Shown here: in pieces, positions 11,131 through 64,000 of the stretch | Position numbering within the stretch: position 1 is the first letter of the stretch | Layout of the letters: every line of letters begins with the position of its first letter | Assembly (NCBI GenBank): GCA_900073065.1 | Contig: FJOG01000005.1 | Location: forward strand, 2,223,818 to 2,287,817 | Direction of reading: 5' to 3' | Source: Phialocephala subalpina | Taxonomy: Eukaryota; Ascomycota; Leotiomycetes; Helotiales; Mollisiaceae | DNA length: 64,000 nucleotides | Notes under the pieces: model-generated | Seen by the model: the letters and a program-made list of their open reading frames with translations, nothing else | The model's database searches: none | What the model was told of the DNA's origin: nothing | Made by a program: the position numbers and the translations under genes

Positions 11131-13340
11131 TATTCAAAATAAAATATCACCTTATAATATAATTATTGAGAGCTCTGGATATATCCCTTTGTTTGGTGAA
11201 ATATAGTTCGTATTAATAGGAGGGCTTTATTTGGGATAATATAGAATAGAATTATGTACCCCTCCATACAAATTGATTAGTAAAATATATCATTTGAATA
11301 ATACTACTCTTAATATTCCCTTTCCTTATAAAGATTATTATTACAAAATATATAATTATTATAAAAATAATTTATTCGATTTTTTAATATTTTAATTTAT
11401 ATAAATATTATATATAAATATTTGTAAAATACTTATACTAATAATATAAATATTATTAATTAAAATTAAATATTATTTTCTTATTTAATTTTATTTAAAA
11501 AATTTATAATTTTATTTTTTTAGAATAATTTAAAAATTTATAATAAAAATTTATTTTGAATTATAAATATATAAAAGGATATTTATGTTGGAACGTCCGG
11601 GGGTTATCATCAAGCACTAAGATCTTAGTCTGGTGTCAATGAATATATTCTCTCTCTGNNNNNNNNNNNNNNNNNNNNNNNNNNNNNNNNNNNNNNNNNN
11701 NNNNNNNNNNNNNNNNNNNNNNNNNNNNNNNNNNNNNNNNNNNNNNNNNNNNNNNNNNNNNNNNNNNNNNNNNNNNNNNNNNNNNNNNNNNNNNNNNNNN
11801 NNNNNNNNNNNNNNNNNNNNNNNNNNNNNNNNNNNNNNNNNNNNNNNNNNNNNNNNNNNNNNNNNNNNNNNNNNNNNNNNNNNNNNNNNNNNNNNNNNNN
11901 NNNNNNNNNNNNNNNNNNNNNNNNNNNNNNNNNNNNNNNNNNNNNNNNNNNNNNNNNNNNNNNNNNNNNNNNNNNNNNNNNNNNNNNNNNNNNNNNNNNN
12001 NNNNNNNNNNNNNNNNNNNNNNNNNNNNNNNNNNNNNNNNNNNNNNNNNNNNNNNNNNNNNNNNNNNNNNNNNNNNNNNNNNNNNNNNNNNNNNNNNNNN
12101 NNNNNNNNNNNNNNNNNNNNNNNNNNNNNNNNNNNNNNNNNNNNNNNNNNNNNNNNNNNNNNNNNNNNNNNNNNNNNNNNNNNNNNNNNNNNNNNNNNNN
12201 NNNNNNNNNNNNNNNNNNNNNNNNNNNNNNNNNNNNNNNNNNNNNNNNNNNNNNNNNNNNNNNNNNNNNNNNNNNNNNNNNNNNNNNNNNNNNNNNNNNN
12301 NNNNNNNNNNNNNNNNNNNNNNNNNNNNNNNNNNNNNNNNNNNNNNNNNNNNNNNNNNNNNNNNNNNNNNNNNNNNNNNNNNNNNNNNNNNNNNNNNNNN
12401 NNNNNNNNNNNNNNNNNNNNNNNNNNNNNNNNNNNNNNNNNNNNNNNNNNNNNNNNNNNNNNNNNNNNNNNNNNNNNNNNNTTTAAATTTAATTAAATAA
12501 ATATTCTATTAATTAATTAAAACTTTTATATATAAACTTTATATAAAATTCTATTAGAAATAAATTAATATAATTTTTAAATTAAAATTTAATTCGATTA
12601 ATATTTTAATAAAATTTATTAAAACGATAAAATATTTCTTTAAATAAATCTTTTTATTTATTAAATATAAATATTAATTTATTTATTTATAATTTTAAAT
12701 TCTTATAAAAAAATTTAAAAGTTTATAATTTGAAAAATATATTATTAAATAAAGAAAAAATAATTCCTCGTAAAAATATTTTTATAAGATTTATAAAAGA
12801 AAATAAAAGAATATTTATAAAATATAAATCGCATTAAAATTTTATTTAAATAAAAAATAAATTGAAAATATTTTTTTATATAAATATTATATTATTAATT
12901 TTATTTTATTTTATTAAAATTTATATATATTTTTTTAATATTATTTATATAATTTTATATAATTTTATTAATAAATTATATATTACGAAATAATTTTCTT
13001 AATATTATTAATTTTTATTTATTTATAAAATTTTAATTATTTTAATTTCATTTTAATATAATATTATTATTTATAAATTTTTTATTAATAATTTTATTTT
13101 TTATTTTATTATAATTTAATTTCATAATTATAATTATTTATTAAAATAAAATTAATATAATTTTCTTTTTTATATAATTTTAAATTTATTATAAGAATAT
13201 TTTTTAAAAAAAAATTTAATATATATAAATAAATATAAATTCCAAAAAAAAATTATAAAGATTTTTATTAGAATTAAAATAAGATTTATCCTTAGAAATA
13301 AAACAAAGAAAGTATTACTAGGCTTTAAAGGAGTCAAAAT
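11131..13340. repeat. AT-rich block with assembly gap, probable RIP-degraded repeat
   Basis: Both sides of a run of Ns are almost pure A/T with dense TpA. There are no coding frames beyond those produced by base composition. A more balanced island at 11586-11658 starts TGTTGGAACGTCC, which looks like the 5' end of an LTR, immediately before the gap. Confidence 0.7.
11659..12481. other. Assembly gap (823 Ns)
   Basis: A run of N bases. Any reading frame crossing it is an artefact. Confidence 0.99.
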
Positions 13341-51929: not shown

Positions 51930-52790
51930 TACTTGTTTCTATATAATATAATTAATCGAACCCTTCTATTATACCCATTTCTAACTCGCAATTAGAAAAA
52001 GTCTAAGTAGTATAATTTACTCTTATAAAATTGGAATTAGAAATAAAATACTTATAAATACTTTTCTTTAATATTTTTATTATTATTTTTCTTTATTTTT
52101 TTATTATTAATTATTAATTTGATATTTATTAATTTGAAATTCTAATTATATTCTTATATAATTTATTTTCCATTATTAATCCCATTATATTTTTATAATT
52201 ATTTCTTTTTTTATTCGATATATATATTATTTTATAAGCCTTATAAAAACGTTTTTATAAAAAGTTATAAAATCTTTGATTTTATTAAAAGAAAACTTTT
52301 TATTAATATTTTTAAAAGTTATATAATTATATAATTATATAATTATATAATTATAAAATTATAAAGAAAATAAAAATTTAATATTTTAAATAATAATATT
52401 TTAATATTTAATAATTTTAATATTTTAAATAATAATATTTTAATATTTAATAATTTTAATATTTAATAATTTTAATATTTAATAATTTTAATATTTAATA
52501 ATTTTAATATTTTAAATAAAAATATATTTAAAAAAAATTTATAATCGTAATTTATAATATACGTAATTATTTATTAATTAATAATATAATAACAAATTAA
52601 TAATTAAATTTTAATTTATTTATAAATATAAAATAATTTATATAAAAAATATATTAATTTTTAAATTATAAATAAAATGAAATTTTAATATTCTTTAGTA
52701 ATTTTTTTAATATTATATAAAAGAGAAAATCTTTAATAAATTAATCAAAGAATCGTATTTAATACTTTTATTAAAGTTTAAAAGGGTGTG
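51930..52790. repeat. AT-rich block with simple tandem repeats
   Basis: Extremely AT-rich, TpA-dense sequence. It includes repeats of a 16-nt unit AATTTTAATATTTAAT in the interval 52436-52515 and a run of ATAATTATAT words at about 52320-52360. No coding frames. Probable RIP-degraded repeat. Confidence 0.7.
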
Positions 52791-53251
52791 CATTTGGTGG
52801 GTCTATACATTAACAATGGAAATCGGTTAGGTTTTAAGCCTGAGGCACTCAGACATTGTAGTAGGATAGTATTAACTAAGTCCCTGGATCTTTGGGCAAA
52901 ATCCTACCCCGCTGCAGTAGAATAGCACGTGGAATCCCAAACACAGCTTCAACACTAGCGCGCGTACGCTCATTTCTTAGTGTTGAAGGGGATTGGAAGC
53001 CTAGAGGCTAGTACGAATGTGTGGAATGAGTCATGTGAGTAGTGAGTCATGTGTGTGCAACTTGCACGTGCTAGCTCAGTAAGGTCGGAGGAATGGACAC
53101 CGCTGTAGTATTAGTATAGAGATCTGTCCATACGACACTCAGTAGTTAAGTCAATGTATTCAGTCAGTCCTTGAACCTGTCAAAACTTGGTACAAGCAAT
53201 CTACATGATCGTTCCTCGGCTTCCATCAACTATTCCGACACTCTCTTGGCA
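52791..53251. other. Upstream region of the H2A-fold gene
   Basis: Transition from AT-rich to balanced sequence. No ORF and no clear TATA box. The frame of the downstream gene is open up to about 53171 but has no ATG before 53252. Confidence 0.4.
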
Positions 53252-54748
53252 ATGACGACCAAACCGCAAGTTTACGCTCAATTCACTGTCACATCCGGAT
53301 GTCTCTGCTACGGCGCCCTCCATAACATCTGGCATGGTGCTACAAGCCCAATCCAGCAATTTCCCACCTCTGTGGCCCGGCATGCCGGCGGAACTGTTAA
53401 AGCTCAAATCTTGCAATTCAATGTTACTGCAAAGAACGGGACATGGAACGCCTTCCAGCTTGTCGCGAAAGGTACGGGTCGTGTCTGCGCATGGTTCGTG
53501 TGTTATTCCAACGTCGACCCAGAAGTGGAAATCGACAAGATTCTCCGCGTCTCGGGCTCTCCCTATGAATATGACAGTGGAAGTCAATTTAACAACGAGA
53601 ATACGGCTGCGGAAGCCGTGTTTGTCATTAATCGATACGACTGGGGTTATTACGATAACCGCGGGAAGGAAGAACTTGGTATCGACGATGAGGTCAACAT
53701 TGAGAATTTCGATACACAGGTGTTTGGTGAAGGAGCAGGACTCGTGGACTTCGGAATCGCGAAAACAGAAGTTCTGCAGTGGCAAAAGAAGGAACGACAT
53801 GAGATAGACACCCAGCCCGGTGGAATCTGGATGTTTATTCCGGGTGGTGAATACATGTTTGGTCGTTTTGGGTTCGACGAGCTCCGTGTGGCAGCAAGAT
53901 CATTCATATTTTTTACGACATACACCGACTTCACTAACACAACCTTTGTTGGACTGGACAACACGCTACGCATATTTGAAACCGATGAAGAAAGGTTTCA
54001 ACACCGCTTGCGCGAAGGCTACAACTTTGAGGGCTTTGGTACATTGGACCAAATGATGAATATCTTTGGGAATTCAACAGTCCTTCCTGCGGAATCCGAA
54101 TACCTGGGACCTTATGACAGCTATGAGTATCTTGTTCAGACCACCGACTTTGAAGCTATTCTTGATGGTATACGACTCATGCCGCAAAGGGTAGAGATGA
54201 AGCTCAACCGATTCGTTGACCCTTGGAAGGAAAAGTGTTACGCCTGTCTAAATGAGATTATAATGGGCTACTTGGAGCACTTCATCGCACCTGTGTCATC
54301 CTGTGACACTGTTGCCGCAGCTGCCGCCTCTTTGTTTCCCAAACAGAACGAGGACAGGGGTGCGGATAGGTACATGTATTCATTCATGATGGAGCCTCAT
54401 TTGAACCTGATTCCTGGCTTTGATGATCGAGGGGTGGAAGGCAGGATTAAAAGCTTCCTCACCCCACGGTGCGGAGACGATAGTTTGGTTAAGGACGACA
54501 AATTCATTGCTGGAATCCGGGCGTGTATCGCGTATCTGCTCTCTGAGGTGTTGGAGCTGGCGAGCAACCATAGTCTAGATTCCAGAAGGAGCGCGATTGT
54601 CCCGGAGGATGTACGGCTTGCCGTATTCAATGACGTTGAATTGCGAGGTCTATTTAAGTATTCTAGGGTTTTCTGGAAGGGAAACAATCAGACTTCTCAA
54701 GTAGCTGGATTTTCTTATACCACAGAGCCTGCCCGAGCTGCTGAATGA
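53252..54748 (+). CDS. 498-aa protein with C-terminal histone H2A-like fold
   Basis: An intronless, intact ORF; the first ATG in frame is 53252 (MTTKPQVYAQFTVTSG). Residues 1-385 form an ordered-looking, beta-rich region with no family I recognise. From about residue 389 the sequence follows histone H2A: VEGRIKSFLTP (alpha 1), ACIAYLLSEVLELASNHSLD (alpha 2), RRSAIVPEDVRLAVFNDVEL (loop 2 and alpha 3), then RGLF. The acidic-patch glutamates in SEVLELA and D/E in NDVEL are kept. Canonical H2A is about 130 residues with basic tails; here the basic N-tail and docking domain are absent and a 390-residue N-terminal region precedes the fold. It could be a chromatin variant, a transcription-complex subunit using an H2A-type fold, or a captured element gene. 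It sits between an AT-rich block and a STAND-like gene. Confidence 0.85.
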   Translation: MTTKPQVYAQFTVTSGCLCYGALHNIWHGATSPIQQFPTSVARHAGGTVKAQILQFNVTAKNGTWNAFQLVAKGTGRVCAWFVCYSNVDPEVEIDKILRVSGSPYEYDSGSQFNNENTAAEAVFVINRYDWGYYDNRGKEELGIDDEVNIENFDTQVFGEGAGLVDFGIAKTEVLQWQKKERHEIDTQPGGIWMFIPGGEYMFGRFGFDELRVAARSFIFFTTYTDFTNTTFVGLDNTLRIFETDEERFQHRLREGYNFEGFGTLDQMMNIFGNSTVLPAESEYLGPYDSYEYLVQTTDFEAILDGIRLMPQRVEMKLNRFVDPWKEKCYACLNEIIMGYLEHFIAPVSSCDTVAAAAASLFPKQNEDRGADRYMYSFMMEPHLNLIPGFDDRGVEGRIKSFLTPRCGDDSLVKDDKFIAGIRACIAYLLSEVLELASNHSLDSRRSAIVPEDVRLAVFNDVELRGLFKYSRVFWKGNNQTSQVAGFSYTTEPARAAE

Positions 54749-55257
54749 GTTGATGTCACTTCGATAGCAAAATCCATATTATCATATACCAAGCTCTCGG
54801 CTCTTGTGACTGAGAGCACGATTGTGCATGATATCTGGCGCCACGTGCCGTCCCTCTTGAAAGTCAAGAAAGGCAGAGCTATTGTGTGAGGGGTGATTCA
54901 AATTTGCTGGCAAGCTCGGCCGAAGTTGATGCGAGCCGTAGAGCGAACACTGTAGACAGCATTGCCAAAGGCCTCCCAGGCCTCCTTCGGCGGGGTCATC
55001 TTTAGCGAGAAACCCCTAAAAATGCCCTCGGTTAGACTAAGTGCCACTGAGGCAAATTCCTCGACATGATTTTTCACAAAAGAAAACCCCTGTAAGTACA
55101 AATACTATGGCCGTTAAAATTTGGGATATCTAGAGCGTTTACAAAGTCTTGACAACAACATTGACTATGAAAACAACGCGCAAGGGAACTTCCGTAGGCA
55201 AAGCTGCAATCTCGGTTAACACCCCCACGAAGCACACTTTAACTTGTGATGAAGACT
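54749..55257. other. Intergenic with an isolated exon-like ORF
   Basis: Between the H2A-fold gene and the convergent STAND-N-like gene. The minus strand (55101-54898) has a 67-codon frame, FSFVKNHVEEFASVALSLTE ... ARINFGRACQQI, preceded by a TTACAG acceptor-like word. It looks like a last exon without the rest of a gene. No family recognised. Confidence 0.3.
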
Positions 55258-57162
55258 TTAATCCTGTGCTCTCTCTCTTCTCCGACGGCGTCTCTCGTAA
55301 AGATCATATTCCGGAGGCTGACTGCCACCCTCACTTGGCTGCTGCGTTGAATGAGTCGAGTGGTTGCGAGATCCAGACTGCCGGCTCCAGGACGATGATT
55401 CACTTCTCATGCTTCCATGATCGTCAGCGTTTGAACCCAGTCCACTGATCGATCCGTAGCCTGAGTCCGCTCTACTTCGAGATCTTTTCCTGGGTTTGCC
55501 TGGTCTTTCTTCGGGTCCTCTGTAGCAGGTCGGGGGGTAACGTTTTTCTTCCACACCTGGTCTCCGTGGTCTGGGACGCTCATCGGCATCCTCAATACCG
55601 GAATCGTGGTCAATCGAACGTGACCTACTTCGTGTTGGACTGCGGTACTGCATTCGATCCTCGTGCGGATGATGAGTCGGTCGTAGGTGAGGCTGAGTTG
55701 GTCCACGCTCTGCTGTTGGATGGAAGCGTATAGGAACATCATCAGGTCTTTGACGTCTGAGAGGCTGTGGAGCTTCTTCAACAAAGGAGTCATGGCCAAT
55801 TGAGCGTGGTCTGCCTCGTGTGTTGTGTTGCTGCCTTGGATTTTTGTGCTGATGGTAACTTGACGGTGGGGGTGGTCGAATGGGTCCACGCTCTTGCATA
55901 GGCTGTTCGTGCAAGAGAACACCGTCACGTCTTCTGACTGACAATGGTGAGTGATTATACATAACGTCGTCTTGTACAAGGGCGGGAACAGTTTGATGCA
56001 ATTGTGTATGCATCAGTCCTTGGCCCGAACCTTCTGAGTGATGATGATATTGCCGTTGATGTTGATTGTTCCGTGGAGGCTGTGGGCGAGGGACGGGTGG
56101 TGGGGTACGTGGATCGGTATAGAGAGACTCTTGTACGATACCAGGGAAGCTTTGAGGCATCTGCACGCGAGCAGGTGCTTGTACTGGTTGTTGTGGCTGA
56201 TCATAATATTGTGGGTTGTAGTTGTTTCGTGGAACTTGTGGGTGGTCATCGGGTGACGGTTGACTGTAGATAAAATCTTGCACAGAAATTGGAACCGTCT
56301 CCGGTATTTCACGACGAGTACGTGTCTGCGTTCGCAGTTGATGATTCTGAGGCCGAGGAAGATTTTGTGGTGCTGGTCGTTGTGGTCGAGGAAGGGAGCC
56401 TGTAGACCTCGTCCCTGCAGTTGTCGGGTCATCAAGTACATCCTCCGCAAGATTTCCCAGTCCATTAAGGTCGATACCGGCCCTCCTCATCCTTTGGTAT
56501 CGAGAATTTCTACTGCGTCTTATACGACTAAGGTGCCTTCGTAGATCATTCTTAGACTGGATCTCTTGTGATCCTCGAAGGATATCTTGCTCTGTGATCT
56601 GCGCCGGGATGTTACTTGGACTTCGTGCCCTTACTTCTTGGCTCACCGTCCTGAACGCATGTTATTATCCGGGTACTCGAACATCAGGACTAGAGAACCT
56701 ACAAGTGCAAGGTATTGAGAGCAATGCTATACCAATTTTCACAATCTTCTAACCGATCCCGGTACCTTTCTATTTTATTGAATCCCGCCGTCATAGCGAT
56801 CCAATTCATGAACCGAAAACTTCCTTTATTCCGAAACCTCAGGTGAAAACGGGCAATGTCGTCACCGAGTAGCCTACAGTACTGTCCAAGGGCGTGAATG
56901 ATATCCGAAAGATTTCTAGGGACTAGACCTCCTAGTCTTCGTAACGTACTTCTCACCTCATCTATAGTTTCATTCAAATAACGAAGCTGTCTTCTCAACT
57001 CTCTAGCCTCCTCTTTTGAGGATATGACATGTTGGACGTTCCCAATTACTCTCGCAAGCTGTATCCCCGCCCCTAGGATACCGAAAGTCAAAGTACTACT
57101 CTATTTATCAGTAAAAAAGAAGATTATCCAAGATCGATGTACACTTACATTGGATCCGTCAT
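55258..57162 (-). CDS. STAND-type N-terminal protein without NTPase domain
   Basis: Three exons: 57162-57149 (MTDP plus two bases), 57095-56703 (or 57098) and 56650-55258, giving 599 or 600 aa. Residues 5-135 resemble the helical N-terminal region found in fungal STAND/NLR-like and related signalling proteins: LTFGILGAGIQLARVIGNVQ, EEARELRRQLRYLNETIDEV, then DIIHALGQYCRLLGDDIARF. The remaining 460 residues are disordered and rich in Pro, Arg, Gln and Ser, with no NB-ARC, NACHT or repeat domain. The reading frame is intact. In fungi such N-terminal regions occur alone or with effector modules, so a role in allorecognition or signalling is possible but unproven. The first exon is only 14 nt, so automated models may start later. 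Confidence 0.75.
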
Positions 57163-62830: not shown

Positions 62831-63060
62831 GTGAGCAGCTATCGCTTTAACCTGAGCTAAGGGTGAGCATGCCTAAGCACGGCCAGAGCTCGGCCTAAGC
62901 AACCTGAGCACATGGCAAAGTCAGCTTGAGTATGCCCTAAAAGGCTATTCTCGAACCCAAAGGGGCTCGTTCTGGCTCCTTTGATGTTCGGCTACATTTT
63001 TCTCGTCGCGTTTTAAAGCACAAATCCCATTTTGGCTCCTTTGCGACTAAGATCCCTTCG
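62831..63060 (+). repeat. Boundary repeat, copy 2
   Basis: Contains CCTGAGCTAAGGGTGAGCA and CTCGGCCTAAGC, resembling the minus strand of 13341-13480. Repeated TTGGCTCCTTTG words occur within it. It sits directly before the terminal AT-rich block. Confidence 0.5.
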
Positions 63061-63079
63061 AAGCCATTTTTGGATCCAC

Positions 63080-64000
63080 ATTCGCTTGTATACATGTAAT
63101 AAGTAGTTTAGCCTCATTATTTCTTTAATGTTTAGTTTATACCAAGAATAGAAATTTGAGGATATAATTATTAGATATTAATTTTCTATATTATTTTTTA
63201 ATTTTTTTATTTTTATTAATAAAATGAAATTATATATATAATTAATAAAATATATATAATAATTTATTATATAATAACTCATTGGATAATTATTTATTAT
63301 ATATTAATTTATTATATAATTTAATTATTTATATTTTATTAAAAATAAAATCCTTTTATATTTATAATAATAATTTTTTTTATAATTTCGATAATTTGAT
63401 TTATACGAATTATTTTATTAATTCCAAAAACCAAATTATAACTTTAAAATCCAATTAAAAATTAATTTAAATTAACGTAAAAATAGTTTCTTATAAAATT
63501 ATAAAATTATAAAATTAATTAAATATATTCGAATAATATTTTTTTATTTATAATTATATATATAATTTTATATTTCCTATATAATATTTTTATAATCAAG
63601 GTTTTTTTAACCTTAATTATTAATATTATAATTATAATAATAATACCAATTAATTAATTATATAATTTTTATATTTTCGCTTATAAATCCTATTGATAAA
63701 TTATTATTCCGATTTATAATAATCGAATTTTATATCAAAATAAACCAAATAATAATTATTCGTATATTTAAATTCTTTCGATAAATAATTATTTCGATTA
63801 TATAATCAAATTAAAATAAGAAGTTTATAAAGCCTTTTAATAATTCTTAAACTAATAATAAATTAATATTTAATATTAAACTCGTTATTTTTATTAATAA
63901 TATAAATAATATTTTAATTATTTTTATAGATTTTATATTTCCTTAGAATTTTCCTATGAATTTTTTTATCGAAAACCAAAATAAATAAAAGTTTATCGTA
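63080..64000. repeat. AT-rich block, probable RIP-degraded repeat
   Basis: Near-pure A/T sequence with dense TpA and no coding frames, continuing beyond the window. Confidence 0.7.

Follow-up and report, generated by a model that had tools for sequence, protein, structure and literature searches.

A large protein of Phialocephala subalpina with an H2A-like histone fold at its C-terminus and a possible second fold ahead of it

Does a fungal protein of about 500 residues end in a histone H2A fold and, if so, with what does that fold pair? The question is raised by a gene in a 64,000-nucleotide stretch of Phialocephala subalpina DNA (the window; positions 2223818-2287817 of contig C90, whose end it reaches), which was analyzed together with the 68.1 Mb genome in 119 contigs. 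The initial annotation, made from the sequence alone, had proposed an H2A-like fold at the end of a 498-residue protein otherwise resembling nothing. The parts of the protein distinguished here are (window positions):

53252-54748, plus strand: whole protein, a single-frame open reading frame (ORF) of 498 amino acids, from translation, open-frame length against shuffles and genome search
53273-53656, plus strand: N-terminal domain, residues about 8-135, common to a fragment on contig C77 and to larger genes on C75 and C88, from searches and codon-position differences
53657-54148, plus strand: middle region, residues about 136-299, acidic, with no relative found, from similarity searches and charge
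54149-54403, plus strand: possible first histone fold, residues about 300-384, seen only in the single-sequence AF2 model
54425-54679, plus strand: H2A-like histone fold, residues about 392-476 (ungapped H2A match at 422-467, positions 54515-54652), from sequence searches, shuffles and model helices

The H2A resemblance of the C-terminus was confirmed. In phmmer searches of PDB sequences the whole protein matched H2A chains at E 8.1e-6, without gaps, over residues 422-467, and residues 290-480 used as query matched them at E 2.2e-6. The Smith-Waterman score against the genome's own H2A was 99, compared with 56 for the best of 5000 protein shuffles, and 19 of 46 residues (41%) are identical through helix 2, loop 2 and helix 3. 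A gap-free overlay had been claimed for residues 389-475; it holds for residues 422-467 but not over the longer span, where helix 1 can be aligned to H2A only with gaps. The reading frame is intact, as had also been said: positions 53252-54748 encode 498 codons plus stop in one frame, and the stop-free stretch of 532 codons exceeds anything seen when positions 53101-54900 were base-shuffled 1000 times, the longest then being 227.

A histone profile search, which had been suggested as a check, did return a match to Pfam Histone (PF00125), but below the cut-off of 26.4 bits, with 13.7 bits (E 0.075) for the whole protein and 16.6 bits (E 0.0095) for residues 385-498 alone. This sub-threshold score is the one point in favour of a chance resemblance or an assembly artefact. 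That explanation is strongly disfavoured and barely credible in view of the shuffle scores, the PDB match and a frame that is open across all parts. Since the frame runs uninterrupted through the histone part, mis-joined exons do not explain it, and since identity to the resident H2A is only 41%, the tail is not a misplaced copy of that gene; an assembly chimera, which the initial annotation had named as a possible refutation, is thus unlikely.

Genome-wide, PF00125 matched 17 pieces, one of them this gene. The tail was compared with the other 16, using 500 shuffles each, and gave z = 17.8 with the piece that we take to be H2A, 7.1 and 5.5 with two presumed H2A.Z-like gene pieces, and no more than 3.5 with the remaining 13, including 1.2 and 0.4 for two genes presumed to be of the NF-YC/Dpb3 type. 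These values indicate that the tail is of the H2A type and not of the NF-Y, H3 or H4 type. NF-YC and Dpb3 presumably share with it an H2A-type fold used outside the nucleosome, but differ from it in these low scores. The tail fold is thus probably H2A-derived, from helix 2 to helix 3 by sequence and for helix 1 by the model only. The same search also found further pieces that we take to be H3-like and CENP-A-like, and at C111:483511-483869 (L008/L017) a strongly diverged, presumably H3-like histone fold with stops inside, either introns or decay.

In what we take to be the human H2A numbering, four of the six acidic-patch residues are kept (E61, E64, D90 and E92), while E56 is replaced by A and E91 by V; the initial annotation had called the patch largely kept. 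The loop-2 arginine, R77, is replaced by A and R81 by E, and K74 and K75 are both R. The net charge is 0 for residues 386-480 and -22 for the whole protein; DNA-packaging histones are not neutral or acidic in this way. Core H2A and H2A.Z share with the tail the ungapped helix 2, loop 2 and helix 3, but core H2A is a basic domain with the loop-2 arginine, whereas here helix 1 is uncertain and the carrier is an acidic chain of 498 residues. The fold cannot be called near-canonical, as had been done, because the Pfam score is sub-threshold, R77 is lost, the domain is neutral and the protein acidic. The evidence does support the broader claim of a large protein that ends in an H2A-like domain.

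With what, then, would the tail pair? In the single-sequence AF2 model the tail is helical, and residues 300-384 ahead of it form helices at 300-308, 315-345, 351-360 and 372-384, with histone-like lengths and spacing. In a VIA structure comparison of the model of residues 290-480 against 172 chains, the nearest structures cover both halves, weakly. These observations suggest that residues 300-384 most likely take the place of H2B as a second, much diverged fold, which would pair with the tail as an intrachain pseudodimer. The protein may thus hold two tandem histone folds, a larger structural reading, from a low-confidence model, than that of the initial annotation. Combined with the N-terminal parts described below, the pseudodimer gives what we tentatively regard as the best explanation, not far from an even call: a multi-domain protein in which a small-family N-terminal domain is followed by an acidic middle and, at the C-terminus, by a histone module.

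Several points weigh against the pseudodimer. The model may be drawn towards a remembered H2A-H2B pair, and sequence searches and comparisons gave no histone support for residues 300-384. One of these comparisons was itself weak: a profile test with eight rows and no shuffles, in which even the H2A part, used as a positive control against a profile lacking H2A, reached a probability of 1.9%. The main rival, which is quite possible though short of probable, is a single histone fold, in which the H2A part finds its partner in a separate chain, the cell's H2B or an NF-YB-like protein, for instance, and the upstream helices belong to an unrelated domain. It agrees with the detection of the H2A part alone by sequence, and the conserved stretch of helix 2, loop 2 and helix 3 presumably contains much of the H2B interface. 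Against it stand the histone-like length and spacing of the preceding helices and the structural matches that span both halves, albeit weakly.

If the pseudodimer is real, the tail fold would pair with the protein's own upstream helices instead of free H2B, and the module would most likely be a protein-binding or autoregulatory platform, like that of Son of Sevenless (SOS). Alternatively, the module could resemble H2A-H2B and contact chromatin factors by way of its acidic patch, which is kept in part and might let it compete for the readers or chaperones of H2A-H2B. Given an acidic protein without the loop-2 arginine, the module would bind proteins and is unlikely to package DNA. For the transcription or defence role that had been considered no direct evidence was found; about 45-50 kb from the gene there are a Clr5 domain and, below threshold, a match to a fungal transcription factor.

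Proteins of this general kind have been described. According to the accessible text of PMC13088155, double histone folds occur in archaea, bacteria, viruses and animals (SOS, ABTB2, HSIH), with many animal examples. In SOS, found in animals and Capsaspora, the double fold (PDB 1q9c) lies N-terminal to the Ras exchange factor and binds proteins, not DNA. ABTB2/Cca3 and HSIH, both recorded there only in animals, carry H2B-like and H2A-like folds in one chain, with identities of about 25% and 30% in Cca3S and 60% or more in HSIH. The protein studied here differs from SOS, with its RasGEF and neighbouring signalling domains, and from ABTB2, with its ankyrin and BTB/POZ domains, in that Pfam at E up to 10 gave nothing for the whole protein besides the weak Histone match; HSIH differs in being single-domain and recorded in animals. 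The same text places SPT3 of the SAGA complex, with two histone folds per chain, in fungi and protists, so that double histone folds are already known from fungi. SPT3 is like the present protein in being fungal and in having two folds in one chain (the upstream one being predicted here), but it is described as single-domain and of low identity to histones, whereas the present tail resembles H2A in sequence; the 60 PDB sequence matches listed included no SPT3-type chain. A multidomain double fold of the H2B-H2A type in a fungus was not found in the accessible part of that paper, nor was a fungal protein of such kind described in the titles, abstracts and passages of the open-access literature searched. 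According to the available passages of PMC10919886, fused histones are as a rule absent from present-day eukaryotes, and those of PMC9145170 state that the putative H2B-H2A and H4-H3 fusions examined are apparently splicing misannotations, real ones still being possible. Unusual fungal histones do exist, as in the ascomycete H4 variant of PMC10878826, which is different from the protein here.

A layout resembling the present one is found in viruses: in the accessible text of PMC9145170, Marseilleviridae H-zeta/H-epsilon begin with an unidentified domain that is followed by an H2A-like one, and giant-virus bins hold similar fusions. The gene might therefore descend from a histone doublet of a large DNA virus, or from a mobile element, but this origin appears very improbable. 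Four scans of viral contigs with short exact patterns found no relative of the whole protein, the tail, the N-terminal domain or a piece of the resident H2A, although scans that missed H2A itself are insensitive; the best BFVD match had E 0.6; and the N-terminal domain has further members in the same genome.

This last result also changes the claim that the 390 leading residues match nothing, which is wrong for the first 130 or so. In the genome search residues 4-81 showed 53% identity to the fragment on C77, and the N-terminal part matched C75 and C88 weakly (E 0.010 and 0.020). In the reverse search with the C75 stretch, E was 6e-57 for C88 and 0.0055 for this gene, and local tblastn prolonged the similarity to a common RYDWG or RYEW stretch. 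Across the four members 11 columns are invariant (the C77 row being partial). Differences from the C77 copy number 23, 17 and 51 at the three codon positions over 77 codons, and this third-position excess indicates past protein-level constraint on the N-terminal domain. The N-terminal part is therefore, on sequence similarity, a member of a small family. The C75 and C88 genes, 66% identical in this domain and 57% in a region further down, gave no histone match in the scanned pieces or genome-wide with PF00125 at E up to 1, and the 9 kb around the C77 fragment gave no convincing further match by local tblastn.

Two readings of this family were dropped. An ADP-ribosyltransferase, to which a presumed YHG-like motif had pointed, was rejected because the histidine is not conserved, the four members having H, Q, H and Y. 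In the relative on C88, a TFIIS/Med26-like domain reached 13.9 bits against a cut-off of 20.6 and was absent from the matching C75 piece; PDB sequences gave no support, two weak matches being viral replicase chains. The C75 locus (L025) lies about 25 kb from its contig end; its first ORF, of 614 amino acids, has no Pfam match, and the ORFs downstream of the gene, at about 6454-7350 of L025, resemble transposases that we take to be of the Tc1/mariner type. In the C88 locus (L026) some sequence is locally duplicated, and the matched frame contains a stop, perhaps an intron.

Similarity searches found no relative for residues 126-289, of which 137-289 carry a net charge of -15, or for residues 290-389. 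No match to the protein was obtained in NCBIfam or, with short exact patterns, in the prokaryote genomes scanned, and a structure search with the whole-protein model returned only unrelated entries among the best 50 of 220.

The surroundings of the gene bear on its history. One further feature was recognized there:

53000-53189, strand not assigned: dispersed repeat, about 190 bases long and shortly before the start codon, from similarity to copies elsewhere in the genome

A copy of the repeat with 88% identity lies at C71:634918-635098, and C6, C108 and C80 contain copies that are shorter or weaker; the repeat is perhaps a solo long terminal repeat or a miniature inverted-repeat transposable element that would now lie within the promoter or 5' untranslated region. 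AT-rich blocks occupy positions 12000-13000 (2.9% GC), 52000-52760 (6.8%) and 63050-64000 (12.4%), adjoining DNA having 48% GC. The second lies about 500 bases from the gene, which the initial annotation had placed next to an AT-rich block. In these blocks TpA/ApT is 0.96-1.02 (0.62 in the gene) and (CpA+TpG)/(ApC+GpT) is 0.50-0.93 (1.19 in the gene), a mixed signal that is compatible with repeat-induced point mutation.

Such a setting would suit a relic or captured exon, that is, part of an H2A gene that became joined to an older gene and now drifts without histone-related function. In agreement with this, the genome search found only one full-length copy of the gene, the C77 relative resembles a truncated fragment, and one DNA-contact residue is lost. 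The relic is nevertheless improbable: the frame is open over its whole length, the stretch from helix 2 to helix 3 is ungapped and stop-free, and the third-position bias against the C77 fragment points to constraint, for the N-terminal domain only.

Elsewhere in the window Pfam matched GWT1, Clr5 and, below threshold, Fungal_trans_2 in other ORFs; together with the AT-rich blocks these matches are what one would expect of a filamentous ascomycete. No chromatin or defence domain was named (E 0.01) in 20 of the 42 other ORFs of at least 150 amino acids, a defence library not being searched. The next long ORF downstream (55258-56646, minus strand, 462 amino acids) has no Pfam match, and neither Rfam nor a tRNA scan gave any match in the window. 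A location at a telomere end was considered and dropped, the last 1600 bases being AT-rich with no telomere repeat recognizable by eye.

The reuse of a histone fold in a multidomain protein is a known kind of event, and here an H2A part appears to have been reused in a larger fungal protein. It is somewhat unlikely, though worth stating, that the gene represents an undescribed fungal family in which a new N-terminal domain is fused to an H2B-H2A-type pseudodimer lacking DNA-binding charge, multidomain like SOS and ABTB2 and arising by capture of H2A or as an H2A-H2B mimic. If true, this would be a second, different kind of fungal double histone fold protein besides SPT3, with one half derived from H2A. 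A real pseudodimer would add an independent example of histone dimers being put to use as binding modules, and possibly an H2A-H2B mimic that could be tested on histone chaperones and acidic-patch readers.
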